Made by a program: the position numbers and the translations under genes. This document shows, one piece after another, positions 38,825-60,302 of a stretch of 64,000 nucleotides of DNA (position 1 is its first letter; each line of letters starts with the position of its first letter). The DNA comes from Nitrospirales bacterium (GTDB lineage Bacteria > Nitrospirota > Nitrospiria > Nitrospirales > UBA8639). The DNA lies in contig BQIW01000006.1 of the NCBI GenBank assembly GCA_021604105.1, positions 1 to 64,000 of the forward strand, in the 5' to 3' direction. A model generated the notes under the pieces. It saw only the letters and a program-made list of their open reading frames with translations, was not told the origin of the DNA and searched no databases.

Positions 38825-39317
38825 CACAACTCATGTGCCTGCTGAAATTCGGCAGGAGCACAAAAGCACAGCCACCAGGGAAGAAATCACTTTTCATTAA
38901 TTGGTTCCTCCAACCCTTCCACCGGGTTGCCCCCAACCTATTTGTTCCAAAACATTCCAATTACGTCAGGCGGCATCTCCCACCTTCTGAACCTTGCAAA
39001 TCAGGATACAAGGCCTCATGTCTTCATTATAAAGTGACAAGTTCAACTGATTGTCCAGATTCACAGTTGTCACCCTTTGTATAATTCTTATTGAATTTTT
39101 ACATTAAGAAAAACTGCTTTTGTTCAGGGAATTATCTGTTAAAATAACTTGACTTGACGATAGGCCGGTCCCACAAGAAATAGTGAAAGTCCCCGGTCCG
39201 TCATGAAGGAGGAAAGGCCCTATCCTCTAACAGGACGAAAAATCGCAGTAGTATTAGGAATATCTCCAACAGGCCACTTATTTCCTTTCGCCTGTGCATG
39301 GTCAGATCGCGCACCCC

Positions 39318-40367
39318 ATGAACGACGATAAGCAAACCACCCTTCCCGCGGAAAAATCTTCTCCCACACCCTTGGCCGATCGCACAAAGGCTGACAATCC
39401 CAGACGCCAAGCGGTTTCTGGGAAGCCTTCGTCTAAGACCAGAACACCGAGTCTAAATTCTCCTGAATCTTCGTATGAAGAAACCGTGTCCATGCTGAAA
39501 AAACAGTTTCAGCTAGCCAAGCGTCAGAAACGTTGGATAAAACGAGCAGGGTTCATGGGTGTCGGTCTTTTGCTACTGGGTGGATTGGGCACATGGTTGG
39601 CGGAGGAGAATAGAACTTTTAAGATGGCCATCCTGAAAGTCGTCGCGCCGGTAGTGAGCATCCATCTGAATCCCGAAATGGTTTCAATACCCCCCGGGAC
39701 TTTTCAACAGGGCGATAGCCGGGAAGAGGATGGGTCAAGCGAACATCCGCTACGAGAGGTCAAAATCAAAAAATTTGCTCTGGGGCGATTCGAGGTCACC
39801 TTTGAAGAATATGACCGGTTCGCCATATCGACGGGTCGGCCCTTTCCGGGTGATGAGGGATGGGGACGTGAAAGGCATCCGGTCATCAATGTTTCTTGGA
39901 AAGACGCGGTGGACTACGCAACGTGGTTATCGAAGGAAACCGGTTATCGCTATCGACTTCCCACAGAGTCTGAGTGGGAATATGCAGCCAAAAACATGGG
40001 GAAAAATGAAATATGGGCGGGGACTTCAGAACAAGAACACCTTGAGACCTATGCCTGGTTCAACACAAACAGTACCGGAAGAACTCAGCCAGTTGGAACC
40101 CAACAAGCCAACGGCCTCGGCCTCCATGACATGAGCGGAAATGTATGGGAATGGGTCCAGGATTGCTGGCACGACGACTATCAGGATGCCCCAACAAACG
40201 GCTCGGCCTGGCTAAAGGCCAATAACGGAAATTGCGGAACACGTGTGAGGCGCGGCGGTGGCTGGACTAATGCGCCCATGTCTTTGCGTTCCTCGTTTCG
40301 TAATGGATACAGCGCCGACTCGCGGAGCATCCAGATTGGCTTTCGCCTCGCGCAGGATATCGAATAG
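39318..40367 (+). CDS. Membrane-anchored FGE-sulfatase/SUMF-fold protein lacking the FGE cysteines
   Basis: TM LLLLGGLGTWLAEE; MVSIPPGTFQQGDS; HPVINVSWKDAVDYATWLSKETGYRYRLPTESEWEYAAKN; LHDMSGNVWEWVQDC; RVRRGGGWTN...IGFRLAQ. Confidence 0.9.
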   Translation: MNDDKQTTLPAEKSSPTPLADRTKADNPRRQAVSGKPSSKTRTPSLNSPESSYEETVSMLKKQFQLAKRQKRWIKRAGFMGVGLLLLGGLGTWLAEENRTFKMAILKVVAPVVSIHLNPEMVSIPPGTFQQGDSREEDGSSEHPLREVKIKKFALGRFEVTFEEYDRFAISTGRPFPGDEGWGRERHPVINVSWKDAVDYATWLSKETGYRYRLPTESEWEYAAKNMGKNEIWAGTSEQEHLETYAWFNTNSTGRTQPVGTQQANGLGLHDMSGNVWEWVQDCWHDDYQDAPTNGSAWLKANNGNCGTRVRRGGGWTNAPMSLRSSFRNGYSADSRSIQIGFRLAQDIE

Positions 40368-42365: not shown

Positions 42366-45300
42366 GTGTTCGATCGCGTTCTACATCATCCCATCCTGAG
42401 AAGAGGATCCCTCCTCTGCCCCAGCTTCCTGCTGCTTTCTCTCTTGTTATTCAGTTTGATCCCGTTGCTCCTCCCGGTCCAGGTCTATGCTGATACCTCA
42501 AGTATTACCGTCAACGGAAAAACGCCTGCCCAATATATAACCGCGACCCAAGGAAAATCCTGGGCGGTGATCATAGGAATTGATAAATATCTGAACCTCG
42601 CCGGCTTGGCCTATGCGGTTGATGATGCGAAATCCGTGGCTCGCATGCTCGGGCGTCAAGGATTTACGATCACATCACTCTACAACACCCAGGCCACCAA
42701 AAAAGCGATCCTTAGGGAATTGCGCCAAAACCTTCTTTCAAAAGTGCAAAAAGACGATCAAGTGCTCATCTTTTTTGCCGGTCATATTGGAGAAACTCCC
42801 GGCACAGGAAAACAACAACCCGCGGGTTATATGATGCCCGTCGATACCGAACCAGGACTCCTTGCGGACACCGCAATCAACGTGGACCTTCTTCGTGAAC
42901 TTTCGGAAACACTTCCGGCGAAACAGGTTTTATTTCTCATTGATATTTGTTATGGAGGGATTGCTGGTCGCAGCCAGCGTTCATTGCCCCCCATGACCGG
43001 TAATTATTTGAAGATGATTGGCCGTGAACCTGCACGCCAATTGATTACCGCAGGAGGGACCGGACAACAAGCCTTAGCCGGACCAAAGTGGAAACATAGC
43101 GTGTTTACCTATTATCTTCTGGAAGGCATTGGGAAGGGCAAGGGTGACCTGAACGGCGATGGCATCATTCCCGCGTCCGAACTCTTTGCCTTTCTCGATG
43201 AGCACGTGCAATCGGCAGCTCTCACCCATAAACATGTGCAACAACCGGAAATGTGGGCGTTGAAGTCGGAAAAAGGAGAATTTGTCTTTATTCCTAAGAA
43301 AATTTCCTCCACCCCCCAAGTCGCGAACACCCCCAATCGTCAAGAAAAAACAAGCAATCCTGCATCTGGTACAGTCGAGACCATTGTCGGACTCCTAAAG
43401 AGTTTTGGCAATCCCTTGGATATCTTCAACAACGACGTTCCATCTGGAAAGGGCGAGCAGGCTGATAAACAAAAAACGATAGAAGAAGAGGCCGCGGCGC
43501 TAGAAGCAGAGCGGGAAAAATTTGAATTGCAGGCTCTTCAATCCTTAAAGGAGCAACGACAGCGGGAGAAGGATCTTCAAGCGCAACTGGCCGAAGCCCA
43601 GCGCCTGGCCGCGGAAGAGGAACGCCGGCGGGTCGCCGCCGAACAGGCCCGCCAGGAAAAAGAAGCCCTCTTAGTGCAACAACAAGCCGCCCTAAAAGCT
43701 CAACAAGCCAAACTCGCCGCGGAGGAGGAGCGCCGCAAACAACTCTTGGCCCAACGAGAACGGGAATTTCAGACTCAACTGGCCATAGCCCAGCGAATGG
43801 TAGCCGAAGAAGAACGGCGACGAGTGGAAGCGGAAAGGGCCCGACTCGCTTCAGAGGAGCAAAAACGAAAACAACTCTTGGCGGAACAGGAACTTACGCG
43901 TCAAACTCAACTCGCTGAAGCTCGACGCATGGCCGAGGAACAGGCCAGAATTGAAGCCGAGAAACAGCGCCGAAAGGAGGCAGAACTCACCCGCCAAACC
44001 CAACTGGCTGAAGCTCGACGCATGGCCGAAGAACAGGCCAGAATTGAAGCCGAGGAACAGCGCCGCAAGGAGGCAGAACTCACCCGCCAAGCCCAATTGG
44101 CTGAAGCCCGGCGAGTGGCTGAAGAACAGGCCAGAATTGAAGCCGAAGAACAGCGCCGGAGGGAAGCCTTGGCCAAACAGGAACTTACCCGCCAACTCCA
44201 ATTGGCTGAAGCCCGACGAGTGGCTGAAGAACAGGCCAGAATTGAAGCCGAGAAACAGCGCCGAAAGGAGGCAGAACTCACCCGCCAAACCCAACTGGCT
44301 GAAGCCCGACGAGTGGCTGAAGAACAGGCGCGCATTAAACAAGAGGCGGCGATGAAAGCCGAAAAGGCCAGACTCGCGGCCCTGGAAGAAGAGCGGGAAC
44401 AAGTCGCCCGGCTCAAGCAAGAGGCGGCGATGAAAGCCGAACAGGCCAGACTTGCCGCGAAAGAGCAACAACGTCAGCAAGCTGAGGAAGCGCGTCGCCT
44501 GGCTGAGTTGGAAGAAGAGCGACGACGAGTCGCCGCAGAACGGGAGCGCAAGGAACTAGAGGAGAAACTTGCGCAACCACAAATCGTCCCGAATGGTGGA
44601 AATGATCCGGCAGAGCCTTCTCCTGAAAGTTCCCCATCGCCTGGAACCATTTCCGCGTTCACTCCTACTCCCCCATCCCCCTCTGCCATTGAACCATCCT
44701 CGAATGAAAGTTCGGGGTTTTTCGGATTTTTTAAGAATATGTTCCACCAAGACCCTACCTCGCAGCCGGCGACCAGCGAGCAACCGAATGGATCTCAACC
44801 GGAACCTATCCTGGAAGCACGGCTCCATCAACAAGAGTTACCTGACGCCGTTCAATCTGCCCTGTCAGAAAATGATGATGTCCCCATGATCTTGATTCCC
44901 GCAGGGAAATTTAGGATGGGAAGTACTGAAGATCAAATTTCCAGCGTCCTGAAAAATTTTGAAGGAATCCAGTTCAATGCTTTTCGAGCCGAAATTCCTC
45001 AACGCCAGATTCAACTCAATGCCTATTACATTGATCAATATGAGGTCAGCTATCGCCACTATCGCGCATTTCTGGAATCTACCGGTCGGGCACCTCCTGC
45101 ATTCTGGGAGAATGAACGATTTCACAAACCGGATCATCCGGTCCTTGGAGTGACCTGGTATGATGCAACCGCCTATTGCACCTGGGCGGGCAAACGCCTT
45201 CCAACCGAGGCAGAATGGGAACACGCCGCCAGAGGATCCCAGGACTATGCCTATCCTTGGGGGAATTCGTGGGATCCTCAACGAACCAATACGGCGAGTT

Positions 45301-45662
45301 ATTGGGCAGGCAAAAATTTTTCATCCATGGCGAAATGGGGTGAATGGATGCAAACCGCGTTGGATCGTGGGAAAGCCGGCCCGTTAGAGATTGGCACATT
45401 CTCGAATGGCGTCAGTCCATTTGGTGTTCATGACATGGCCGGAAATATATCTGAGTGGGTCTTCGATTGGTATGCGCCATACGAGAGCCAACTGATGCTC
45501 ATTCACAATCCCAACGGGGCGGATTCCGGGACTATGAAAGTGCATCGTGGAGGATCTTGGAGTGTGAGTTCGATTTTTGCCCGGTCGACCTATCGGGCGC
45601 GAGAAAATCCTGAGAAGAGAAGTCCATACATTGGAATGCGTTGCGCCAAATCCTATCAGTAA
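42366..45662 (+). CDS. Predicted-exported caspase-like (C14) / coiled-coil / FGE-sulfatase-fold fusion protein
   Basis: Signal segment LLLFSLIPLLLPVQVYADTS; caspase region WAVIIGIDKYLNLAGLAYAVDDAKSVARML with candidate dyad FFAGHIG and LIDICYGG; ~330-aa charged coiled coil; C-terminal MILIPAGKFRMGS...LPTEAEWEHAARG...VHDMAGNISEWVFDWY...VHRGGSWSVSS. Confidence 0.9.
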   Translation: MFDRVLHHPILRRGSLLCPSFLLLSLLLFSLIPLLLPVQVYADTSSITVNGKTPAQYITATQGKSWAVIIGIDKYLNLAGLAYAVDDAKSVARMLGRQGFTITSLYNTQATKKAILRELRQNLLSKVQKDDQVLIFFAGHIGETPGTGKQQPAGYMMPVDTEPGLLADTAINVDLLRELSETLPAKQVLFLIDICYGGIAGRSQRSLPPMTGNYLKMIGREPARQLITAGGTGQQALAGPKWKHSVFTYYLLEGIGKGKGDLNGDGIIPASELFAFLDEHVQSAALTHKHVQQPEMWALKSEKGEFVFIPKKISSTPQVANTPNRQEKTSNPASGTVETIVGLLKSFGNPLDIFNNDVPSGKGEQADKQKTIEEEAAALEAEREKFELQALQSLKEQRQREKDLQAQLAEAQRLAAEEERRRVAAEQARQEKEALLVQQQAALKAQQAKLAAEEERRKQLLAQREREFQTQLAIAQRMVAEEERRRVEAERARLASEEQKRKQLLAEQELTRQTQLAEARRMAEEQARIEAEKQRRKEAELTRQTQLAEARRMAEEQARIEAEEQRRKEAELTRQAQLAEARRVAEEQARIEAEEQRRREALAKQELTRQLQLAEARRVAEEQARIEAEKQRRKEAELTRQTQLAEARRVAEEQARIKQEAAMKAEKARLAALEEEREQVARLKQEAAMKAEQARLAAKEQQRQQAEEARRLAELEEERRRVAAERERKELEEKLAQPQIVPNGGNDPAEPSPESSPSPGTISAFTPTPPSPSAIEPSSNESSGFFGFFKNMFHQDPTSQPATSEQPNGSQPEPILEARLHQQELPDAVQSALSENDDVPMILIPAGKFRMGSTEDQISSVLKNFEGIQFNAFRAEIPQRQIQLNAYYIDQYEVSYRHYRAFLESTGRAPPAFWENERFHKPDHPVLGVTWYDATAYCTWAGKRLPTEAEWEHAARGSQDYAYPWGNSWDPQRTNTASYWAGKNFSSMAKWGEWMQTALDRGKAGPLEIGTFSNGVSPFGVHDMAGNISEWVFDWYAPYESQLMLIHNPNGADSGTMKVHRGGSWSVSSIFARSTYRARENPEKRSPYIGMRCAKSYQ
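43935..44330 (+). repeat. Imperfect ~93-bp tandem repeats encoding the coiled coil
   Basis: Four copies of EEQARIEAE(K/E)QRR(K/R)EAELTRQxQLAEARR(M/V)A, with nearly identical DNA; one copy is 35 aa instead of 31. Confidence 0.9.
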
Positions 45663-45759: not shown

Positions 45760-48573
45760 CTACTGAATCTCCCAATCCGTGGAGGTCGACCCTGGAAAAC
45801 CCACCGAGGAAATCGTCAATCCGTCCATCAGCCAGACCGCTACCGTCCCATTTCTGCTATTGCGCCAAATGACATCCGCCTTGCCATCCCCGTTCACATC
45901 CCGGGCCTCTGAAATGTGCCAGGCCACCGGCACTCCACCCGGAAAACCTGAGGCCGCCATGGCGGTCCCGTTCATCAACCAGATCGCCGTATTGCCGTCA
46001 GTCGTATTGCGCCAAATCAGGTCCGCCTTGCCATCCCCGCTTACATCACCCACACCCGTGATTTCAAAAGCCGGCGAGGCACTTCCAGGAAAGCCCACAG
46101 CTGTCACCGACAATCCGTTCATCAGCCACACGGCCACTCCCCCACTGGTGCCATTGCGCCAAATCACATCGGCCTTGTTATCCCCGTTCACATCACCCAC
46201 CCCCGCAATGTGCCAGGCCACCGGCACTCCACCCGGAAAACCTGAGGCCGCAATCGTGGTTCCATCCATCAACCAGATCGCCGTACTGCCGTCAGTCGTA
46301 TTGCGCCAAATCAGGTCCGCCTTGCCATTTCCGTTCACATCGCCCACACCCATGATCTTAAAATCCGTCGAGGCACTACCCGGAAACCCGGTGGAAATAA
46401 TTGTTAACCCATCCATCAGCCACACGGCCACTCCCCCACTGGTGCCATTACGCCAAATCACATCGGCCTTGTTATCCCCGTTCACATCGCCCACCCCCGC
46501 AATGTGCCAGGCCACCGGCACTCCACCGGGAAAGCCTGAGGCCGCAATCGTGGTTCCATCCATCAACCAGATCGCCGTGCTGCCATTAGAATTGTTCCGC
46601 CAAACCAGATCAGCTTTGCCATTGGCATCGAGATCTCCCAAGGCCGGTGCAGTTCTGGGTGGAACCAACGTCAAGGCCGTCGTCACAAAAAAGTCCGGAC
46701 CCGTGAGTTCCATCTCGGTTCTGGTTTGATTGTTCAGATTGATCCTTTCAAATAGAATATTTTTGGTAAATCCTGAGGTCACCTTATGCTGCCCGGAAAA
46801 ATGATACAGGAAGTCCGGTGACGTTCCCACACCAATGGTCTCACTTTCCCGGAAATCCGGTTGCCCCGCCACGGCACCGGCCGAGACATCCAGGAATTCC
46901 ATCGTAGCTCCCGTTGTTTTATTCACCCTATAAATCCGTGCCGGAAGCACCGACGTTCCCCCGGGCACCGGTCGGTTGTCCGTGATCACATAGAGAGTTC
47001 CGGCCGCATCAAACGCCAGGTCCATAAAGTTTCCTTGAAGTTTGGCCTTTTGGGTGGCCACCCCCGTCGTCGGATTAATCGTCACTAACCGGCGGATACT
47101 GTTCACTTCGGACGTCACGACAAGTAAGCCCCATAGCTGACCGGTTCCAGGCTCTGTCGCCAACCCACGCCCCCCTTCTAAGGATTCACCCGTCGATAAC
47201 GACAAAGGGATCTTGGCCAGCGTGGCACCGGTTTCGGGATTGAGCCGATACAGATTTGGCCGGGCTCCGGACTGTTGCCCAAGCATCAGCTCTTCCACGG
47301 AATACAACGTGGACCCGACAAAGGCCAATCCGTGCGTGCGGTGGGTCAAATCGGCAATTTTGGTTACCGCCCCATCAGTGCGAAGTCGGTAGAGGCTATT
47401 CACCAGCGGTCCGGTCTTGGGGTCATTTTGTACGCCCATGAGAAAAACTGGCGGTCCCGAGGAAATGACCAGAGCCACTGAACTCCCCGGAGTCACTTTT
47501 ATTCCGGCCACGGGCGTTTGACTGATGACGGTTCCGCTTGGCACCGTTTCGCTATTGGCGGTCGTCACAATCCCCACGGTTAAGCCCGCATCGCCCAGAG
47601 CCGTTTGGGCACGGCTCTGCGTCAAGCCTACGACATTGGGCACGGTCGTTCCCAGCGATACTACCAATGCAACCGCACTTCCAGGGTTCACAGTTGTGCC
47701 AGCCCCCGGGTTTTGACTCATGATTCTACCGGCCCCTACCGTAGCGCTATTGGCCGTGGTCACGGTTCCCACAGTTAAGCCTGCAGTGGTCAGGGCATTT
47801 CGGGCGTCAGCTTGTGTGCGACCAACAACATTCGGGACTTGTGCCCCTTGGGACACAACCAGGCCCACCGCGCTGCCCTCCGCCACCTTGGTTCCTGCTA
47901 CCGGATTTTGACTCAAAACCTTTCCTGTTGCTACAGAGATACTAATAGCTGTTATGACTGCCCCGACGGTTAAACCGGCTGTGGTAATTGCGGTTTGCGC
48001 GGCCGTCTGCGTTAAACCCACCACATTCGGCACCCCGTTGCCCAGTGACACCACCAGATCAATCGGACTCCCAAATGCCACACCGGTTCCCGCCGTGGGG
48101 TTCTGACTGATGACCCTGCCCTCCCCCACGGTAGCACTATTGACCGTCGCCACCTTCCCTACGGATAATCCTGCTTTGGTCAGATCCTTTAGGGCGTTAG
48201 CCTGTTTTCGACCAACAACGTCCGGGACGGCCACTCCGGAAACCACCAAATCAACCTTGGTACCCCGGATCACATTAATCCCTGCTGCTGGATCTTGCCT
48301 GATGATGGTCCCTGGCAGGACAGCCACATTATTAGCCGAGGTGACCTTTCCCACTCTCAGATTGGCTTTGACAAGATCCGCCTCCGCCTTAGCCTGTGAG
48401 CTACCCACGACATTGGGGATTTCGACGGCTCTTGCTGTTTCAGGTAAGGCACCGGCAAGAAACAGCAGACTTCCGAGGACGACGAGTTGTAAGACCATGC
48501 ACTTGAAACTCTGACGGGTTCCCCTGTTTGTGCAGTTCAAGCTCCCCTGATGCTGGACTGTCATTGCGTCCAT
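45760..48573 (-). CDS. Secreted PASTA(x5) / central propeller-like domain / FG-GAP-like (x6) protein, paralog A
   Basis: Signal peptide, then five ~65-aa VPNVVGxxQ...VVSxG units, then FLMGVQNDPKTGPLVNSLYRLRTDG domain, then six DxNGDGKADxIWRN blades. Confidence 0.92.
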   Translation of the reverse strand: MDAMTVQHQGSLNCTNRGTRQSFKCMVLQLVVLGSLLFLAGALPETARAVEIPNVVGSSQAKAEADLVKANLRVGKVTSANNVAVLPGTIIRQDPAAGINVIRGTKVDLVVSGVAVPDVVGRKQANALKDLTKAGLSVGKVATVNSATVGEGRVISQNPTAGTGVAFGSPIDLVVSLGNGVPNVVGLTQTAAQTAITTAGLTVGAVITAISISVATGKVLSQNPVAGTKVAEGSAVGLVVSQGAQVPNVVGRTQADARNALTTAGLTVGTVTTANSATVGAGRIMSQNPGAGTTVNPGSAVALVVSLGTTVPNVVGLTQSRAQTALGDAGLTVGIVTTANSETVPSGTVISQTPVAGIKVTPGSSVALVISSGPPVFLMGVQNDPKTGPLVNSLYRLRTDGAVTKIADLTHRTHGLAFVGSTLYSVEELMLGQQSGARPNLYRLNPETGATLAKIPLSLSTGESLEGGRGLATEPGTGQLWGLLVVTSEVNSIRRLVTINPTTGVATQKAKLQGNFMDLAFDAAGTLYVITDNRPVPGGTSVLPARIYRVNKTTGATMEFLDVSAGAVAGQPDFRESETIGVGTSPDFLYHFSGQHKVTSGFTKNILFERINLNNQTRTEMELTGPDFFVTTALTLVPPRTAPALGDLDANGKADLVWRNNSNGSTAIWLMDGTTIAASGFPGGVPVAWHIAGVGDVNGDNKADVIWRNGTSGGVAVWLMDGLTIISTGFPGSASTDFKIMGVGDVNGNGKADLIWRNTTDGSTAIWLMDGTTIAASGFPGGVPVAWHIAGVGDVNGDNKADVIWRNGTSGGVAVWLMNGLSVTAVGFPGSASPAFEITGVGDVSGDGKADLIWRNTTDGNTAIWLMNGTAMAASGFPGGVPVAWHISEARDVNGDGKADVIWRNSRNGTVAVWLMDGLTISSVGFPGSTSTDWEIQ
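47455..48423 (-). repeat. PASTA repeat array, 5 copies (approximate limits)
   Basis: Counted by eye in paralog A; ~65-aa / 195-bp unit. Confidence 0.85.
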
Positions 48574-48718
48574 GTAGTGTTTGCTCCATTCACCAACAAT
48601 TGACTAACCATATGACAAAACAAGGATTTGAATCCATACTTTGGTTCCGGCAATCCCTCTCTTGAATGCCACTTTTACTTATTATCGTGACATGAAGCGA
48701 AGATGCCGCAACCAATGT

Positions 48719-51700
48719 CTACTGAATCTCCCAGTCTGAGGGAGCCGAGCCGGGGAACCCCACGCTTGAAATCGATGATCCATTCATCAGCCAGACGGCC
48801 ACTGTCCCGCTTCCCCCATTTCGCCAGATAACATCCGATTTGCCATCGCCGTTGATATCGCCGACTTGAGAAATCTGCCATGCCAGGGGTACCCCGCCAG
48901 GAAAACCGGGAGCAGCAATGACGGTCCCATTCATCAACCAGATCGCGGTACTGCCGTCCGTCGAATTGCGCCAGACCAGATCCGCTTTGCCATCCCCATT
49001 CACATCGCCGACCCCCGCAATCTCAAATGCGGTCGACGCACTGCCGGGAAAGCCGACCCCCGTGATACCTAATCCGTTCATCAGCCACACCGCTACGGTG
49101 CCGTTCCCACCATTGCGCCAGATGACATCCGCCTTACTATCCCCATTCACATCCCCGACACCTGAGATTTGCCAGCCTACCGGCACCCCGCCCGGAAAAC
49201 CAGGAGCCGCGATTTTCGTTCCATTCATCAGCCAGATAGCGGTACTGCCATCAGTTCTGTTGCGCCAGATCAGGTCGGCTTTCCCATCGCCGTTGACATC
49301 GCCCACACCCGCAATCTCAAACGCGGTCGTCGCGCTTCCGGGAAACCCCACGGCCGATACCGACACTCCGTTCATCAGCCACACCGCCACAGTGCCACTT
49401 GTGCCATTGCGCCAGATGACATCCCCCTTGCCGTCTCCATTCACATCGCCCACACCCGCAATCTTCCAGGCCGCTGGCACCCCGCCTGGAAAGCCGGAAG
49501 CCGCAATCCTGGTTCCATTCATTAACCAGATGGCCGTGCTGCCATCTTGGGTGTTTTGCCAGATCAGATCGGTCGTGCCGGACGCATCCAGATCGGCCAA
49601 AGCCGGAGTACCTGCACCGGTATTCGTATTTGTGGGTGGCACCAACGTCAAGGCTGTCGTGACAAAAAAGTCCGGGCCCGAGAGCGCAATGGCTTTTCTG
49701 GCCTTCGTGGTTCGATGGATCTGCTCAAACAAAATATTCTTGGTAAATCCTGAGGTCACCTTATGTTGCCCGGAGAGATGATACAGGAGATCCGACGACG
49801 ACCCGACCCCTATGGTTTCACTCTCCCGGAAATTCGGTTGCCCCGCTACGGCGCCGGCCGAGACGTCCAGGAATTCCGTCGCAGCCCCTGTCGTTTTATT
49901 TACCGTATAAATCCGGGCCGGAGCCACAGCCCCACCCGATACGGGTCGGTTATCCGTGATTGCGTACAGCGTCCCGGCCGCATCAAACGCCAGGTCCATG
50001 AAGTTTCCAAACAGTTTGGCCTTTTGCGTGGCGACCCCGGTCGTCGGATTGATTGTTACCAGCCGGCGGATGGTATTGACCTCGGAGGTCACCACGAGTA
50101 ACCCCCACAGTTGGTTGGTTCCAGGCTCCGTGGCCAGACCCCGCCCTCCTTCTAAGGATTCCCCTGTTGATAAGGACAGGCGGATCGTGGCCAGCGTGGC
50201 CCCGGTGCTGGGATTGAGCCGATACAAATTCGGCGGAGTCCCCGCTGATTTCGCCAGCGTCAGCTCTTCTACGGAATACAAGTTGGACCCGACATAGGCC
50301 AAACCATGGGTACGGTGCGTGAGATCTCCAATCTTGGACACCACCCCATCGGTACGAAGGCGGTAGAGGCTATTCACCAGCGGCCCGGTCTTGGGATCAT
50401 TTTGCACACCCATCAGGAGAACCGGTGGACCCGAGGAAATCACCAAACCGACGCCACTACCTGGGGAAACATTCGTCCCCGCTGTCGGGTTTTGACTAAT
50501 CACATTTCCCGAAGCCACCGTGTCGCTAAAAACTGAGGTCACATTCTCCACCGTCAAGCCTACACCGGCAATGGCAGCTTGCGCCGCAGACTGCGATTTA
50601 TTGACCACATCGGGCACAGCCGTCCCCAGCGACACCACCAGAGCGACAGAACTGCCAGGGGCCACATTAGACCCCGCTGTCGGATCTTGACTGATAACGT
50701 TTCCGATGGCCACCGTCTGACTGTTGGCCGAAGTCACTGTACCAACTTTCAGCCCGGCTGAGCTCAAAGCGGTTTGTGCACTACCCCTCGAAATCCCGAC
50801 GACATCGGGCACCTTTGCCCCAAGGGACACGACTAGGGCCACGGCACTGCCTGCCTCCACCTTAGCCTCTGCAGCCGGATTCTGACTGATGACCCTGCCC
50901 GCCGCCACGGAACCACTATTAGCGGTCGTCACCCTGCCTAACGTTAGGTTGGCCTCGGTAATCGCTGTTTCCGCGGCAGCCCTGGTCAAGCCCACCACCT
51001 TCGGCACCACCACACCCAGAGATACCACCAATGTCACAGCGGTTCCTGGAGCCACATTAACCCCAGCCTCGGGAGATTGATTGATCACCGTGCCCGCCGG
51101 CACGGTCGTACTGGTCGCGCTCGTTATCGTCCCCAGGGTTAATCCCCCACTGGTAATGGCTGTTTCTGCCGCATCCTGCGTTAAGCCAACCACATCGGGC
51201 ACCTTTGCCCCAAGGGACACTTCAAGGGCAACGGCACTCCCCGGAGGCACATTACTCCCCGCTGTCGGCGTTTGACTGATTACGTTGCCGATAGGCACCG
51301 TGGCACTATTGGTTGTCGACCCTGTCCCCACTGTCAGACCTGCCGCTGTAATGGCGGTTTCCGCCGCGGCCTGGGCCAATCCAACCAGATCCGGGACTGC
51401 GGTGCCCAGAGACACCACCAGTGTTACAGCACTATCCGGCAATACATTGGTACCCGCTGCCGGCGTTTGACTGATTACAGTGCCGATGGGCACTGTGGTA
51501 CTATTGACTGTCGACCCTGTCCCCACTGTGAGACCCGCTGCCGTAATGGCAGATTCCGCGGACTCCTGTGCCAACTCCACGACATTTGGAACCGTCACTC
51601 CGGATATCACGAGGTCCACCGGACTGCCTGGTACCACATTGATCCCGGCCGCCGGATCCTGACTGATCACGCTGCCGATGGGCACCGTCGCACTATTGAC

Positions 51701-51964
51701 CGACGTCACAACCCCCACCGATAGATCCGAGTTGGTAATGGCCGCCTCTGCCGTTGCTTGTGGATTTCCGATAACATCGGGGACCTCTGCAGCGCCTGCC
51801 GTTGTAGGTAAAGTACAGATGAATACTAACAGGCACATAGGAACCATCAACTTCAAAAGAATCGAGGTGAGATCTCCTGGCAATTTCTGACAGGTGAAAT
51901 TCAACATAAATCTGTTCGTGTGCAGAATTTTCATCACGTTCATGTCATTGACTCCATTCAGCAA
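48719..51964 (-). CDS. Secreted PASTA(x7) / central propeller-like domain / FG-GAP-like (x6) protein, paralog B
   Basis: Same architecture as paralog A; seven PASTA units counted, six blades counted. Confidence 0.92.
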   Translation of the reverse strand: MLNGVNDMNVMKILHTNRFMLNFTCQKLPGDLTSILLKLMVPMCLLVFICTLPTTAGAAEVPDVIGNPQATAEAAITNSDLSVGVVTSVNSATVPIGSVISQDPAAGINVVPGSPVDLVISGVTVPNVVELAQESAESAITAAGLTVGTGSTVNSTTVPIGTVISQTPAAGTNVLPDSAVTLVVSLGTAVPDLVGLAQAAAETAITAAGLTVGTGSTTNSATVPIGNVISQTPTAGSNVPPGSAVALEVSLGAKVPDVVGLTQDAAETAITSGGLTLGTITSATSTTVPAGTVINQSPEAGVNVAPGTAVTLVVSLGVVVPKVVGLTRAAAETAITEANLTLGRVTTANSGSVAAGRVISQNPAAEAKVEAGSAVALVVSLGAKVPDVVGISRGSAQTALSSAGLKVGTVTSANSQTVAIGNVISQDPTAGSNVAPGSSVALVVSLGTAVPDVVNKSQSAAQAAIAGVGLTVENVTSVFSDTVASGNVISQNPTAGTNVSPGSGVGLVISSGPPVLLMGVQNDPKTGPLVNSLYRLRTDGVVSKIGDLTHRTHGLAYVGSNLYSVEELTLAKSAGTPPNLYRLNPSTGATLATIRLSLSTGESLEGGRGLATEPGTNQLWGLLVVTSEVNTIRRLVTINPTTGVATQKAKLFGNFMDLAFDAAGTLYAITDNRPVSGGAVAPARIYTVNKTTGAATEFLDVSAGAVAGQPNFRESETIGVGSSSDLLYHLSGQHKVTSGFTKNILFEQIHRTTKARKAIALSGPDFFVTTALTLVPPTNTNTGAGTPALADLDASGTTDLIWQNTQDGSTAIWLMNGTRIAASGFPGGVPAAWKIAGVGDVNGDGKGDVIWRNGTSGTVAVWLMNGVSVSAVGFPGSATTAFEIAGVGDVNGDGKADLIWRNRTDGSTAIWLMNGTKIAAPGFPGGVPVGWQISGVGDVNGDSKADVIWRNGGNGTVAVWLMNGLGITGVGFPGSASTAFEIAGVGDVNGDGKADLVWRNSTDGSTAIWLMNGTVIAAPGFPGGVPLAWQISQVGDINGDGKSDVIWRNGGSGTVAVWLMNGSSISSVGFPGSAPSDWEIQ
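50430..51790 (-). repeat. PASTA repeat array, 7 copies (approximate limits)
   Basis: Counted by eye in paralog B; spurious antisense ORFs at 51285 and 51480 are spaced 195 bp, matching the unit. Confidence 0.85.
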
Positions 51965-52240
51965 GAATCAGCTGCCCAGTCCACGGCGATCCAGGCTCGC
52001 CTGGTTCAATCAGACACTTACGCGCCCACCATGGATTGCTGTTGCTTTTTTCAGTGAATTTAAGAAGGGGCGTTCGTTGTCTCTACAATGGGGGAGGGTT
52101 CGGCCGTGTATTAAATCAGGTGGCTGAAATAATTCTGATCGGGAACACGAAAAATTAAAGTGAAGTATAACATGAGAAGGTTGACGCGTTCCATCCTTAG
52201 CTCGCTGACCCTGGTGATCCCATCCAACCGGAATGAAAAT

Positions 52241-55200
52241 CTACTGAATCTGCCAAACTGAGGATGCCGAGCCAGGGAAACCCACGGCCGAAATTGACAA
52301 CCCGTTCATCAGCCATACCGCAACAGTACCGCTCGTGCCATTGCGCCAGATGACATCCGCCTTGCCATCCCCATTCACATCGCCGACTTGTGAAATTTGC
52401 CATGCTAGGGGTACCCCGCCAGGAAAACCGGGGCCGGCAATGGTGGTTCCATTCATTAACCAGATGGCCGTGCTGCCATCAGTCCTGTTTCGCCAAACCA
52501 GATCGGCTTTGCCATCCCCATTCACATCACCCACGCCTGCGATCTCAAATGCCGTCGACGCACTACCGGGAAAGCCGACCTCGGTGATACTTAAACCGTT
52601 CATCAACCATACGGCCACGGTGCCTACGGCGTTCCGCCAAATGACATCCGCCTTGCCATCTCCATTCACATCGCCCACGCCCGCAATCTGCCAGGCCAAA
52701 GGCAACCCGCCAGGAAAACCGGAAGAGCCAATGGCAGTCCCATTCATCAACCAGATCGCCGTGCTGCCATCATTCTGGTTGCGCCAGACCAGATCCGCTT
52801 TGCCATCCCCATTCACATCGCCGACTCCCGCAATCTCAAACGCTGTTGACGTGCTTCCGGGAAAACCCAAGGTCGTCACCGATATTCCGTTCATGAGCCA
52901 CACGGCCACGGTGCCGGTGGCATTCCGCCAGACGAGATCGGCCTTGCCATTGCCGTTCACATCGCCTACGCCCGCGATCTGCCAGGACATCGGAACACCC
53001 CCCGGAAAGCCGGAGGCGGCGATCGTCGTTCCATTCATCAACCAGATCGCCGTACTGCCATCAGTTGTATTCCGCCAAATCAGGTCGGTCGTACCGGACG
53101 CATCCAGATCGCCCAGGGCAGATACATTCGGACTCATGGGTGGCACCAAGGTCAAGGCCGTGGTCACAAAAAAGTCCGGGCCGGTGAGTTCCATCTCGGT
53201 TCTGGTTTGATTGTTCAGATTGATCCTTTCAAACAGAATATTTCTGGTAAATCCTGAGGTCACCTTATGCTGCCCGGAAAGATGATACAGCAGGTCAGAG
53301 GCAGTCCCCACCCCAATCGTTTCACTTTCTCGAAAATTCGGTTGCCCCGCCACGGCGCCAGCCGAGACATCCAGAAATTCCGTCGTAGTCCCGGTCGTCT
53401 TATTCACCGTATAAATTCTGGCCGGAGACACGCCTCCCCCCGAAACCGGTCGGTTATCCGTAATCGCATACAGCGTCCCGGCCGCATCAAAGGCCAGATC
53501 CATAAAGTTTCCAAACAGTTTGGCCTTTTGAGTAGCCAGACCCGTTGTCGGATTAATCGTCACTAACCGCCGGGCATTGTTTACTTCGGACGTCACCACC
53601 AGCAACCCCCACAGCTGATTGGTCCCAGGCTCCGTGGCCAGCCCTCGTCCCCCAACTAACGATTCGCCCGTGGACAAGGAAAGGGAGATCGTCTCCAGTG
53701 TGGCACCGGTGTCGGGATTGAGCCGATACATCTTCGGCGGGGCCCCAGCCTGTTGCGCAAGCGTCAGTTCTTCCAAGGAATACAAGGTGGACCCGACAAA
53801 GGCCAAGCCATGCGTGCGATGCGTCAGGTCTGCGATTTTGGTCACCACTCCATCTGTGCGAAGGCGGTAGAGGCTATTCACTAGCGGCCCGGTATTAGGA
53901 TCATTTTGCACCCCCATAAGAAAAGCCGGCGGTCCGGAGGAAATCTCCAGGGCCACCCCGCTGCCTGGAGCCACATTCGTCCCCGCTAACGGGTTTTGAC
54001 TGATCACGGTTCCCAGGGGTACGGTATCGCTAAAAACCGGGGTCACTGTCCCCACAGTAAGGCCCGCCGTGATCAAAGCCGTTTGAGCTATACTTTGTGT
54101 CAAACCCACAACATCTGGCACCTGAGCTCCAAGCGATATCACCAGGGCTACCGTACTGCCAGGCGCCACATTGTTCCCGGCTGTCGGATTTTGACTAATG
54201 ACAGCACCAATTGCCACAGTGGGACTCGTGGCGGTCGTCACGGTCCCCACTATCAAGCCCGCCGTAGTAATTGCAGATTGCGCCGCTGCCTGCGCCAAGC
54301 CCACCACATTCGGGACTGCGGCACCGAGGGAGACGACCATATTCACGGCACTACCCTCCGTCACGCTAGTTCCTGAAGAGGGAGTTTGACTGATGACTCT
54401 TCCAATGGACACCGTCGGACTTGTGGCGGTCGTCACCGTCCCCACTGTCAAGCCCGCCGTGGTAATCGCGGATTGCGCCGCCGCCTGCGTTAAACCCACC
54501 ACATCCGGTACCACCGGCCCCAAGGACACCACCAAGGCCACAGCACTGCCTGGCGCTACATTGCTCCCGGCCTCTGGATTCTGACTGATGACATTTCCAG
54601 GGGGTACCGTCGGACTCGCGGTAGTCGTCACATCCCCCACTGTTAAACCGACATTCGTAATGGCTGTCTGGGCGGCGGCTTCCGCCAAGCCCACCACATT
54701 AGGCACCGCAGTGCCCTGGGAGACGACAAAATTCACGGCGCTGCCCGCATTGACACTGGTTCCTGGAGCAGGAGTTTGACTGATGACCCTTCCGATTGCC
54801 ACCGTCTGACTATTGGTTGAGGTCACAGTGCCCACGGTCAAGCCGGCATTGGTAATTTCGGTCTGCGCGGCAGTCTGCGTTAAACCCACCACATCCGGAA
54901 CAGCAGGCCCCAGCGACACCACGAAAGCCACAGCACTGCCTGGCGCTACATTGTTCCCGGCCCCTGGATCCTGACTGATGACATTCCCGGCCGGCACCGA
55001 TGGATGACTGGCTGTTGTGATGGCCCCTATCGTCAACCCGGCATTGGTAATCGCCGTTTGGGCAGCCGACTGTGCCATGCCCACCACATCCGGCACCGCA
55101 GTTCCCAGGGACACCACGAAAGCCACGGCACTACCTGGTTCCACATTGCCCCCTGCTGCGGGGTTCTGACTGATAACCGTCCCAATAGGTACAGTGGCAC

Positions 55201-56095
55201 TATTCGCTGACGTCACCGTCCCAACCGTAAGCCCCGCGTTTGTGATGGCGGTTTGGGCATTTCCCTGTGTGAACCCAACCACATCCGGCACAACCGCGCC
55301 CAGAGACACCACCAAGGACACCGCACTGCCAGCCTCCACATTGGTCCCCGCCACTGGATTCTGGCCGATGACGTTTCCAATGGCCACCGTTGTACTATTG
55401 GCTGACGTCACCGTCCCCACTGCCAGGTTGGCACTGGAAATCGCCGTTTGCGCGGTGCCTTGGGCCAACCCCACGACATTTGGCACCGCGATACCCAGAG
55501 AGACCACCAAGGCGACCGCATTACCCTGAAAAACATTGGTCCCCGCAGCCGGATTCTGATCGATGATGTTTCCAATAGGCACGGTCGCATTATTCGCTGA
55601 CGTCACCGTCCCCACCGTGAGATCCGCATTCGTGATGGCAGTTTGGGCCGCCGCCTGTGCAAATCCCACCACATTCGGTACCGCCACTCCAGAAATTACA
55701 AGATCCACCGGACTGCCCGGTACCACATTGATCCGCGCTGCCGGATCTTGGTTGATAACGTGGCCAATGGGCACACCACCATCAATGGCCGCCGTCACAA
55801 CTCCCACAGTGAGACCGACGTTTATAATATCGGACTCTGCTGTAGCCTGTGGGCTCCCGATAACATCCGGAACTTCTATGGCTCTTGCTGTTGCTGGAAA
55901 TATTAAGTTGAAGAAAAAGAGGCTTACGGGAACCACCAGCCACAAAAAGATCAACTTGTGACCTCTTTCCAATTTCTGGTGGGTTAGATTCAACCCGATC
56001 AGGTGCTGAACCTTCATCACATCCCTAAAGGATCCGGTCGTGGATAGACCTAAGTGGCCGAAAGATATCTCATGATGCGCACAAGAGAAACACAA
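52241..56095 (-). CDS. Secreted PASTA(x10) / central propeller-like domain / FG-GAP-like (x6) protein, paralog C
   Basis: Ten PASTA units counted; six blades. Likely start MKVQHLIGLN at 56017 with upstream AGGGA. Confidence 0.92.
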   Translation of the reverse strand: MCFSCAHHEISFGHLGLSTTGSFRDVMKVQHLIGLNLTHQKLERGHKLIFLWLVVPVSLFFFNLIFPATARAIEVPDVIGSPQATAESDIINVGLTVGVVTAAIDGGVPIGHVINQDPAARINVVPGSPVDLVISGVAVPNVVGFAQAAAQTAITNADLTVGTVTSANNATVPIGNIIDQNPAAGTNVFQGNAVALVVSLGIAVPNVVGLAQGTAQTAISSANLAVGTVTSANSTTVAIGNVIGQNPVAGTNVEAGSAVSLVVSLGAVVPDVVGFTQGNAQTAITNAGLTVGTVTSANSATVPIGTVISQNPAAGGNVEPGSAVAFVVSLGTAVPDVVGMAQSAAQTAITNAGLTIGAITTASHPSVPAGNVISQDPGAGNNVAPGSAVAFVVSLGPAVPDVVGLTQTAAQTEITNAGLTVGTVTSTNSQTVAIGRVISQTPAPGTSVNAGSAVNFVVSQGTAVPNVVGLAEAAAQTAITNVGLTVGDVTTTASPTVPPGNVISQNPEAGSNVAPGSAVALVVSLGPVVPDVVGLTQAAAQSAITTAGLTVGTVTTATSPTVSIGRVISQTPSSGTSVTEGSAVNMVVSLGAAVPNVVGLAQAAAQSAITTAGLIVGTVTTATSPTVAIGAVISQNPTAGNNVAPGSTVALVISLGAQVPDVVGLTQSIAQTALITAGLTVGTVTPVFSDTVPLGTVISQNPLAGTNVAPGSGVALEISSGPPAFLMGVQNDPNTGPLVNSLYRLRTDGVVTKIADLTHRTHGLAFVGSTLYSLEELTLAQQAGAPPKMYRLNPDTGATLETISLSLSTGESLVGGRGLATEPGTNQLWGLLVVTSEVNNARRLVTINPTTGLATQKAKLFGNFMDLAFDAAGTLYAITDNRPVSGGGVSPARIYTVNKTTGTTTEFLDVSAGAVAGQPNFRESETIGVGTASDLLYHLSGQHKVTSGFTRNILFERINLNNQTRTEMELTGPDFFVTTALTLVPPMSPNVSALGDLDASGTTDLIWRNTTDGSTAIWLMNGTTIAASGFPGGVPMSWQIAGVGDVNGNGKADLVWRNATGTVAVWLMNGISVTTLGFPGSTSTAFEIAGVGDVNGDGKADLVWRNQNDGSTAIWLMNGTAIGSSGFPGGLPLAWQIAGVGDVNGDGKADVIWRNAVGTVAVWLMNGLSITEVGFPGSASTAFEIAGVGDVNGDGKADLVWRNRTDGSTAIWLMNGTTIAGPGFPGGVPLAWQISQVGDVNGDGKADVIWRNGTSGTVAVWLMNGLSISAVGFPGSASSVWQIQ
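53935..55880 (-). repeat. PASTA repeat array, 10 copies (approximate limits)
   Basis: Counted by eye; antisense ORFs at 54198, 54393 and 54588 are spaced exactly 195 bp, matching the unit. Confidence 0.87.
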
Positions 56096-56176
56096 TATTA
56101 CCTAACAATGTCGTTTGTGAGAATTAATGCCTTCTTACTCGATGTCCCCTGTAAGTCAGCAGCTCGGATATTCAAA

Positions 56177-59100
56177 CTACTGAATTTCCCAATCGGAGGG
56201 AGCGGAACCCGGGAAACCCACAGTCGAAATTGACAACCCGTTCATCAACCAGACCGCTACTATGGCACTGGTATCATTGCGCCAGATGACATCGGCATGA
56301 CCATCTCCGTTCACGTCGCCGACTTGAGAAATTTGCCACGCTACGGGCACGCCCCCAGGGAAGCCGGCCGTGGTAATGGCTGTCCCATCCATTAACCAAA
56401 TCGCCGTACTGCCATTGCTCTGGTTTCGCCAGATCAAGTCCGCCTTTCCATCGCCATTCACATCCCCAACCCCCGCCATATCAAAAGCGGTTGGGGCAAC
56501 TCCGACAAAGCCTACGTCTGTCACCGATAACCCATTCATCAGCCATATAGCCACTCCCCCACTAATACCATTGCGCCAAATGACATCTGCTCTATTATCC
56601 CCATTGACATCGCCCACCCCCTCGAGTTGCCAGGCCACGGGCACTCCCCCCGGAAAGCCGGAGGCGGCAATTGTCGTTCCATTCATCAACCAAATGGCGG
56701 TGCTACCGTCAGTGATGTTACGCCAAACCAGGTCGGCTTTACCATCGCCGTTCACATCGCCCACGCCTGCAATCTCAAACGCCGTCGAAGTGCTTCCCGG
56801 AAAGCCAACAGCCGTCACCGACACCCCGTTCATGAGCCACACGGCTACGGTGCCGGTGGTATTATTGCGCCAGATGACATCCGCCTTGCCATCGCCGTTG
56901 ACATCGCCCACGCCCGCGATATGCCAAGCCCTCGGAACACCTCCCGGAAAGCCGGAGGCGGCGATTGTCGTTCCATTCATCAACCAGATCGCGGTGCTGC
57001 CATCACTCTGGTTACGCCATATGAGGTCGGCCGTGCCCGACGCATCCAGATCTCCCAATGCCGGAGGACCCGTAGGTGGCACCATGGTCAGGGCGGTTGT
57101 CACAAAAAAATCCGGACCTGTGAGGGCCATCGCGGTTCTGGCTTTTGTCGTCAGATGAATCGTTTCAAACAAAATATTCTTAGTAAAGCCTGTGGTTACC
57201 TTATGCTGCCCGGAGAGATGATACAATAGGTCGGAAGAAGACCCCACCCCGATCGTTTCGCTTTCTCGAAAATTCGGTTGCCCCGCCACGGCCCCGGCCG
57301 AAACATCCAGAAATTCCGTCGTAGCTCCTGTCGATGTATTCACCGTATAAATCCGCGCCGGAAACACCGCCGCCCCCCCTGGCACCGTTCGGTTGTCCGT
57401 GATCACATAGAGCGTCCCGGATTCATCAAATGCCAAGTCCATAAAGTTCCCAAACAATTTAGCCTTTTGGGTTGCCACCCCCGTGGTCGGATTAATGGTC
57501 ACTAACCGCCGCGCACTGTTCACTTCGGACGTCACGACAAGTAACCCCCACAGCTGATTGGTTCCAGGTTCCGTCGCCAGCCCTCGCCCCCCCTCTAAGG
57601 ATTCGCCCGTTGATAATGATAAAGGTATCCTGGCCAGCGTGGCCCCGCTTTCGGGGTTCAGCCTATACAAATTCGGTGAAGCTCCGGACTGCGGAGAAAG
57701 GGACAGTTCCTCGATGGAATACAACGTGGTCCCGACATAGGCCAAGCCATGCGTGCGATGAGACAATTCCCCAATTTTGGTCACTACTCCATCGGTACGA
57801 AGTCGGTAGAGGCTATTCACCAGGGGTCCGGTCTTGGGATCATTTTGCACCCCCATCAGAAAAACCGGCGGTCCGGAAGAAATTACCAGGGCTACCGAAC
57901 TGCCCGGATCCACATTGACGCCTGCTTTTGGATTTTGACCAATAACGTCGCCAATCGGCACCGTAGAACTAATGGTTGTCGTCACTATTCCCACGGTCAG
58001 TCCAGCCGTGGTCAATGCCTTTTGAGCATTGATCTGCGTCAAACCCACGACACCGGGCACCTGAGTCCCTAGCGATACTACTAGGGCCACTGCACTTCCC
58101 GGAGCCACATTGTCCCCCGCTGGCGGGGTTTGACGGATGATAGTACCAATCTCCTTTGTTGAACTCGTGGCAGTCGTCACCGTGCCCACCGTCAAGCCAG
58201 CATTGGTAATGGCGGTTTGCGCCGCGGGTTGCGTCAAGCCCTCAACATTCGGCACTGAAGCTCCAAGAGAAACGACCAGGTTCACTGCACTATCCGCCGC
58301 CACTTTGGTTCCTGGATCGGGAGTTTGACTGATGACTCTGCCAATAGGGACTGTCTGACTATTGGCGGATGTTACCGTGCCCAGCTTCAACCCTGCCGAG
58401 GAAAGCGCTGTTTGGGCCGCAGCCCGGGTTTTTCCCACGACATTCGGCACTACCGGACCTGTCGACACCACCAGGCTCACCGCACTATCCACCGCCACAC
58501 TCGCCCCCGCCGCCGGCGTTTGACTGATGACCCGCCCCGCGGCCACCGTGGCATGACTGCTCTCCGTGACGGTCCCTACCTTGAGCCCCGCATTGGTGAG
58601 CGCGGTCTGCGCCGCCCCCTGCGTGCTGCCCACCACATTCGGCACCGTCACCGGCGCCGGGCCTGTCGACACCACCAGGGCCACCGCACTATCCACCGCC
58701 ACACTCGCCCCCGCCGCCGGCGTTTGACTGATGACACTGCCCGAAGGCACCGTGGCATGGTTGGCAGTCGTGATGGGTCCCACCGCCAAACCCGCTCCTG
58801 TAATGGCTGACTCGGCCGCCCCCTGCGTGCTGCCCACCACATTCGGCACCGTCACCGGCGCCGGGCCCGTCGACACCACCAGGCTCACCGCACTGCCGGC
58901 CGCCACACTCGCTCCCGCCGCCGGCGTTTGACTGATGACACTGCCCGAAGGCACCGTGGCATGGTTGGCGGTCGTGATGGGTCCCACCGCCAAGCCCGCT
59001 CCTGTAATGGCTGACTCGGCCGCCCCCTGACTCAACCCAACCACATCGGGGACATCTTCAGCCCATACTGTGGGCAACGCGAAGGTGGGTAACAACATTC

Positions 59101-59209
59101 CCACCACAACCATGATCTTGAAAAGATGTATCAGCCAACTATGGGCTTTATCACTTTGTTTCAGTTTCCGGACATCATTAAGCTGTTGCTCTGCGGCGTT
59201 CATGCGCAA
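56177..59209 (-). CDS. Secreted PASTA(x6) / central propeller-like domain / FG-GAP-like (x6) protein, paralog D
   Basis: Six PASTA units counted; first units carry a GPAPVT linker; six blades; signal peptide MVVVGMLLPTFALPTVWAED. Confidence 0.92.
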   Translation of the reverse strand: MRMNAAEQQLNDVRKLKQSDKAHSWLIHLFKIMVVVGMLLPTFALPTVWAEDVPDVVGLSQGAAESAITGAGLAVGPITTANHATVPSGSVISQTPAAGASVAAGSAVSLVVSTGPAPVTVPNVVGSTQGAAESAITGAGLAVGPITTANHATVPSGSVISQTPAAGASVAVDSAVALVVSTGPAPVTVPNVVGSTQGAAQTALTNAGLKVGTVTESSHATVAAGRVISQTPAAGASVAVDSAVSLVVSTGPVVPNVVGKTRAAAQTALSSAGLKLGTVTSANSQTVPIGRVISQTPDPGTKVAADSAVNLVVSLGASVPNVEGLTQPAAQTAITNAGLTVGTVTTATSSTKEIGTIIRQTPPAGDNVAPGSAVALVVSLGTQVPGVVGLTQINAQKALTTAGLTVGIVTTTISSTVPIGDVIGQNPKAGVNVDPGSSVALVISSGPPVFLMGVQNDPKTGPLVNSLYRLRTDGVVTKIGELSHRTHGLAYVGTTLYSIEELSLSPQSGASPNLYRLNPESGATLARIPLSLSTGESLEGGRGLATEPGTNQLWGLLVVTSEVNSARRLVTINPTTGVATQKAKLFGNFMDLAFDESGTLYVITDNRTVPGGAAVFPARIYTVNTSTGATTEFLDVSAGAVAGQPNFRESETIGVGSSSDLLYHLSGQHKVTTGFTKNILFETIHLTTKARTAMALTGPDFFVTTALTMVPPTGPPALGDLDASGTADLIWRNQSDGSTAIWLMNGTTIAASGFPGGVPRAWHIAGVGDVNGDGKADVIWRNNTTGTVAVWLMNGVSVTAVGFPGSTSTAFEIAGVGDVNGDGKADLVWRNITDGSTAIWLMNGTTIAASGFPGGVPVAWQLEGVGDVNGDNRADVIWRNGISGGVAIWLMNGLSVTDVGFVGVAPTAFDMAGVGDVNGDGKADLIWRNQSNGSTAIWLMDGTAITTAGFPGGVPVAWQISQVGDVNGDGHADVIWRNDTSAIVAVWLMNGLSISTVGFPGSAPSDWEIQ
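57870..59055 (-). repeat. PASTA repeat array, 6 copies (approximate limits)
   Basis: Counted by eye in paralog D; first two units nearly identical. Confidence 0.85.
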
Positions 59210-59624: not shown

Positions 59625-60302
59625 ATGGAAAAGAATACAGACGAAAAACCAACCACCGAGGTGCAGGATGATCCAAAAGCCCGCGAGCTGCTACAAGCCG
59701 CTTTTGCCAAAACCGCCCGGTGGCAACCAGACTTCAAAGGCTTTCAGGCCGACCTCCGCATTAATGTGAACGGAAAAGAAACTAAAGGGACCGTGACCGT
59801 GAAAGGGCCGCGGGATGTGACGGTGGTCATCGATGATACCGAATTACAAACCTGGGCCCAAAACCAGATTGGAATGATTGCCGTGCATCGGGGGCCCAGA
59901 ACGTTCGAGGAATCAGACGGGAAACACACCCTGACTTTAGGGGGAGAAGAACAGCACCCTTTAGGTCAACGGATTACCATTCATGGAGATGGAATGGGTT
60001 CCTGGTACCGGGTGAAAGACAACCGCATTACCCAAATCAATCGAAACATGCCTCAGGCAGCTTTTACCATCAACGTGGAAGATAGTGCCGTCACCCAGGA
60101 TCAACATTTTCTCACTACCCGATATACGGTCTATTATTTTTCCCCAAAAGACCGGTCACTGAAAAATGTCGACAGTTTTTCGGATACACATATCAGGATA
60201 GGCAACTCAGACCTTCCGGCGACCCGAAGGATTATTTCTTATGAAAACGGCGAAATCGTCGTGCGATCCCTCACGTTTGAAAATCACAACATGCTGTCAT
60301 AA
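59625..60302 (+). CDS. DUF3386-like protein
   Basis: DPKARELLQAAFAKTARWQPDFKGFQADLRINVNGKETKGTVTVKGPRDVTV; family assignment from recall. Confidence 0.7.
   Translation: MEKNTDEKPTTEVQDDPKARELLQAAFAKTARWQPDFKGFQADLRINVNGKETKGTVTVKGPRDVTVVIDDTELQTWAQNQIGMIAVHRGPRTFEESDGKHTLTLGGEEQHPLGQRITIHGDGMGSWYRVKDNRITQINRNMPQAAFTINVEDSAVTQDQHFLTTRYTVYYFSPKDRSLKNVDSFSDTHIRIGNSDLPATRRIISYENGEIVVRSLTFENHNMLS

Follow-up and report, generated by a model that had tools for sequence, protein, structure and literature searches.

A marine nitrite oxidiser of the order Nitrospirales carries four adjacent genes that, to judge from domain matches and structural models, probably code for secreted, sugar-binding proteins mounted on repeat stalks. 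All four lie on the reverse strand of the window, the 64,000-nucleotide stretch of contig BQIW01000006.1 (assembly GCA_021604105.1) that was analysed. Gene A (45760..48573, 937 aa) combines a signal peptide, five PASTA units, a central propeller-like domain and a six-bladed propeller; its stalk spans 47443..48420 and its head, of 560 aa, 45763..47442, with the blades running from about 46635 down to 45763. Gene B (48719..51964) has seven PASTA units (stalk 50417..51784) and a six-bladed head of 565 aa (48722..50416); it measures 1081 aa when counted from the first TTG, and its true start is probably an internal ATG instead. Gene C (52241..56095, 1284 aa from the first TTG, with a likely start at an ATG downstream) has ten units (stalk 53921..55873) and a six-bladed head of 559 aa (52244..53920). 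Gene D (56177..59209) is 1008 aa long from an ATG at 59203 that is kept in its orthologs, and comprises six PASTA units and a six-bladed head of 560 aa (56180..57859). Its stalk falls into two parts: a variable block of 204-bp units with a GPAPVT linker (58451..59053), three of them in this genome, and a constant block formed by the last three units (57860..58450), which are position-conserved across species. Signal peptides in A to D were judged by eye; no anchor domain figures among the Pfam matches of the four proteins, and nothing besides the signal peptide was found for attachment. The interval assigned to the feature by the initial annotation, 47455-59055, covers the four PASTA arrays and omits the head of A.

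Searched whole, the window genome contains 28 PASTA units (Pfam PF03793), every one in ORFs A to D. All 28 lie above the Pfam curated cut-off, with E-values of 1e-9 to 1e-18 per unit, and the pattern is far from chance. The counts of 5, 7, 10 and 6 units in A, B, C and D, with six blades everywhere, which had been made by eye, are exact: a cluster-specific HMM agrees with Pfam on the units, and a blade HMM recovers six blades in each of the four heads at 80-100 bits per blade. The statement that the heads are near-constant stands as well, the central domain being 83-88% and the blade domain 75-83% identical between the window paralogs. The central domain has weak Pfam leads only (DUF6923, DUF4394); of 295 genomes sampled from the phylum just four gave a match, which in one was weak, and the other three belong to this genus. 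As a separate observation, the search of the whole window genome detected no PASTA kinase and no PASTA penicillin-binding protein.

Among 59 relatives searched, the four-gene cluster is also present in G010, G018, G014 and G003, which belong to the same genus but to different species, so that five species were compared, with one genome per species; G010 and G018 are closed single-contig genomes. Across these species the dS of head orthologs ranges from 0.13 to 0.85. Both flanks are conserved. On one side, adjoining A, stands a gene for a caspase (Peptidase_C14) - coiled coil - FGE-sulfatase protein (42366..45662, forward strand); on the other, adjoining D, a gene for a DUF3386 protein (59625..60302, forward strand) belongs to the DUF3386-TPM genes, a side that in G014 is on a separate contig. 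In G002, DUF3386 adjoins a C-type gene and D was not found. The caspase - coiled coil - FGE protein itself varies by species, with open frames of 1099, 1250, 1278, 1267 and 1309 aa, a repeat-rich coiled coil in its centre and its recognisable domains at the termini; a further FGE-sulfatase domain protein lies at 39294-40367, about 2 kb before that gene.

The head was modelled with AlphaFold2 at middling confidence (pLDDT 71 for the head, 79 for the blades alone). In the whole-head model the blade domain matches UmbA4 of the Streptomyces umbrella particles (9oee_A) with a Z of 27.7 and an rmsd of 2.8 over 293 residues, and when modelled alone with a Z of 25.5 and an rmsd of 3.1 over 290 residues; the next-best structural match has a Z of about 16. 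UmbA4, the best match and a full-length one, has a six-bladed propeller that binds teichuronic acid (PMC13274773), and the blade domain of A to D is predicted to have six blades, a lectin fold and calcium-type loops in common with it. However, UmbA4 joins the Umb particle through a trypsin-like domain at its N-terminus, whereas the Pfam scan finds no trypsin domain in A to D, which have a PASTA stalk instead. Because neither the head nor the blade profile matched any PDB sequence at E 0.01, hence no solved lectin, it is from the fold that we take the lectin reading, and carbohydrate binding is what this fold would suggest for the head. Bacterial integrin-type FG-GAP propellers (PMC3192720) have FG-GAP repeats, DxDxDG-type calcium loops and Pfam FG-GAP matches as A to D do; by contrast, the integrin-type propeller has seven blades, and the cluster heads six (20 out of 20). 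Most of the blade proteins in the genus whose N-termini are different also have six blades, a number that recurs in an Acidobacteria MAG. The constant blade number had been taken as a sign that the head is constrained relative to the stalk, an argument that loses its force when six is usual in proteins without this N-terminus; most simply, six may be the closure number of a closed propeller, a feature of the fold. The genus has many blade-only FG-GAP proteins that carry other N-termini, a large six-blade family (an example is L049:5568-9549). A distant homolog in G009 (L046:1-3016), which adjoins a caspase-FGE gene at the position of A, has three blades, so that blade number is not absolutely fixed; its longest exact repeat is 21 bp and an origin of the three-blade head in repeat collapse is unlikely.

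The stalks of A, B and C do not vary. They have 5, 7 and 10 units in the window genome, G010, G018, G003 and G014 alike, in arrays of 978, 1368 and 1953 bp whose lengths are identical to the base in the five species. With head orthologs as diverged as they are, equal array lengths mean that these stalks have been held over real divergence. The units are locked in position: the best cross-species match of 108 of the 110 is the same paralog at the same position, and none of the 110 has a nearer match within its own genome. They have also drifted well apart, adjacent units having DNA identities of 55-67% in A, 58-77% in B and 61-80% in C, the best pair of any kind reaching 66-71%, 70-77% and 78-83%, and the longest exact repeat within an array 11-18, 17-29 and 27-65 bp, respectively. 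A higher-order similarity of 390 bp (two units) in the stalk of C suggests that its ten units arose via an old two-unit duplication. Since counts are fixed and units position-locked, the differences between A, B and C represent old divergence, not ongoing length variation.

D behaves differently. It has 5 units in a sixth genome, G016, whose contig stops within the gene, in a unit that identity marks as terminal, 6 in the window genome, 7 in G003, 14 in G010 and 17 in G018; in G014 the assembly breaks inside D, the 5' end of the gene starting contig C3 and its 3' end closing contig C7. Only the N-terminal 204-bp units differ in number, 3 in the window and 2, 4, 11 and 14 in the other species; the last three units stay the same throughout. 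Within genomes the N-terminal block is homogenised: 27 of its 30 units are nearest to another unit of the genome they belong to, many at 97-100% identity, against only 1 of the 15 terminal units. Adjacent units of the variable block share 77-100% of their DNA sequence in G010, 83-99% in G018 and 81-89% in the window genome. Resolved D arrays contain exact repeats, the longest of which measures 56-394 bp. Such long exact repeats are largely missing in A to C; D therefore has a substrate for unequal recombination or slippage, and across the four genes the identity between repeats tracks the variability of the stalk. The comparison of orthologous loci thus divides the initial proposal of a variable stalk under a constant head. 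It is borne out for D, with 5, 6, 7, 14 and 17 units, and fails for the other three genes, where counts are the same in every species; ongoing length variation in all paralogs is contradicted by these counts and array lengths and by the position-conserved units.

The frame of D adds a complication. Read from its conserved ATG, it stays open to the end of the head in the window genome (1008 aa) and in G003 (1075 aa). It closes before the head after 324 aa in G010, where unit 3 has lost 77 bp, and after 846 aa in G018, where unit 12 lacks 1 bp, so that D as assembled in both closed genomes yields no full-length protein. Neither array length nor lesion can be separated from assembly type, since long arrays are visible only in closed assemblies, where unpolished indels hide, and the frame breaks may be either assembly errors or real inactivation.

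The account that we consider likely brings these observations together as four tandem paralogs with fixed stalks in A to C, an expandable minisatellite in D and a six-bladed, lectin-like head. A to D would be paralogs of an exported protein in which a signal peptide is followed by an N-terminal PASTA rod, perhaps serving as a spacer, then by a propeller-like central domain and, at the C-terminus, by a closed six-bladed propeller with loops of calcium-binding type. Stalk length would be specific to each gene and fixed in A (5), B (7) and C (10), where the units are presumably too diverged to recombine readily with each other. The N-terminal part of D would be a coding minisatellite, its 204-bp units gained, lost and homogenised as near-identical copies recombine or slip against one another, with no effect on the last three units or the head. 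That stalk length instead varies under selection in each of the four genes and tunes the reach of a constrained head from the surface was suggested by counts that differ among paralogs when heads do not, and D does differ across species too; but counts and array lengths that are identical across five species in each of A, B and C, units locked in position, and six blades in so many proteins devoid of a PASTA stalk make it very improbable. We would give more room, still short of an even chance, to the idea that PASTA number sets avidity for peptidoglycan, and hence retention, not reach: the N-terminal repeats would be the wall-binding part, the protein being kept in the envelope through PASTA and the head presented wherever the protein is held. 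Several PknB-type kinase PASTA regions bind wall fragments, PASTA regions of this type are the only notable solved sequence relatives of the stalk, and the signal peptide is the sole candidate for attachment in A to D. However, not all PASTA domains bind peptidoglycan, and the fixed copy number in A to C fits reach equally well. PASTA Ser/Thr kinases (PknB, StkP) likewise have tandem extracytoplasmic PASTA units, and the stalk of A to D matches PknB PASTA structures by sequence; yet these enzymes have a cytoplasmic kinase domain, absent from A to D according to Pfam, where PASTA is joined to propellers.

For D, several further readings compete with that of an expandable, functional minisatellite. 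The gene may be decaying, a functionless, drifting array with real pseudogene lesions, and it is the case that two distinct frame breaks fall in the two genomes with long arrays and that in G002 D was not found where a C-type gene adjoins DUF3386. Nevertheless D heads are under purifying selection (dN/dS about 0.08-0.14, to be compared with 0.05-0.13 in the other paralogs), two genomes keep the gene intact and the 204-bp units hold frame in every copy besides the two lesioned, which leads us to regard decay as unlikely. A little less likely still, counts and frame breaks could be partly artefacts, as short-read assembly can recover an array only if it is short or diverged, and hybrid long-read assembly leaves indels in arrays that short reads are unable to polish. 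The breaks inside D on both sides in the G014 assembly and the end of the G016 contig within the gene point that way, as does the single base lost in a G run in G018, and repeats are a known source of such errors (PMC6868369). Against this, the longest exact repeat of D in the window, 56 bp, is resolvable by short reads, units in long arrays bear distinct substitutions, and a 77-bp deletion is atypical of read error. With about the same reserve, and as one joint proposal, D might be a contingency locus. In marine nitrite-oxidiser populations the length of its 204-bp array, together with frame breaks in it, would act as a switch that makes a lectin-like protein of the surface or envelope long, short or headless, the three paralogs of frozen length keeping the basic function.

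The minisatellite reading of D finds a counterpart in the periscope proteins (Sgo_0707, SasG, Rib; PMC8201768, PMC9704523), whose stalks are made of near-identical tandem domains of more than 50 residues, as that of D is. In these proteins copy number varies between relatives under a constant functional domain and length variation is largest where repeat identity is highest (PMC8201768). D is alike in these respects, its variation being seen between species with one genome each, and its variable block reaches 100% DNA identity; A, B and C, with diverged repeats and fixed counts, do not resemble them. Unlike periscope proteins, A to D have the stalk at the N-terminus and the head at the C-terminus, and neither a sortase motif nor an autotransporter barrel was found in them. 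The main texts of PMC8201768 and PMC9704523 make no mention of PASTA, a literature search found 'PASTA domain' and 'FG-GAP' together in no paper, and none was found linking N. marina with PASTA. With this locus the idea of variable stalks comes to include PASTA domains and a marine chemolithoautotroph, an organism in which host immunity is unlikely to drive the variation. It amounts to a natural controlled experiment: four adjacent paralogs share head and stalk domain, three are frozen and one is hypervariable, and DNA identity between repeats predicts which. It also calls for caution, differences between paralogs not being a measure of ongoing length variation. Finally, a 2060-aa DUF7948/SBBP protein of G005 (L045:6509-7516) displays five consecutive 204-bp PASTA units with a GPAPVT-type linker, 81-94% identical in DNA; the expandable unit is thus present in a gene unrelated to D.
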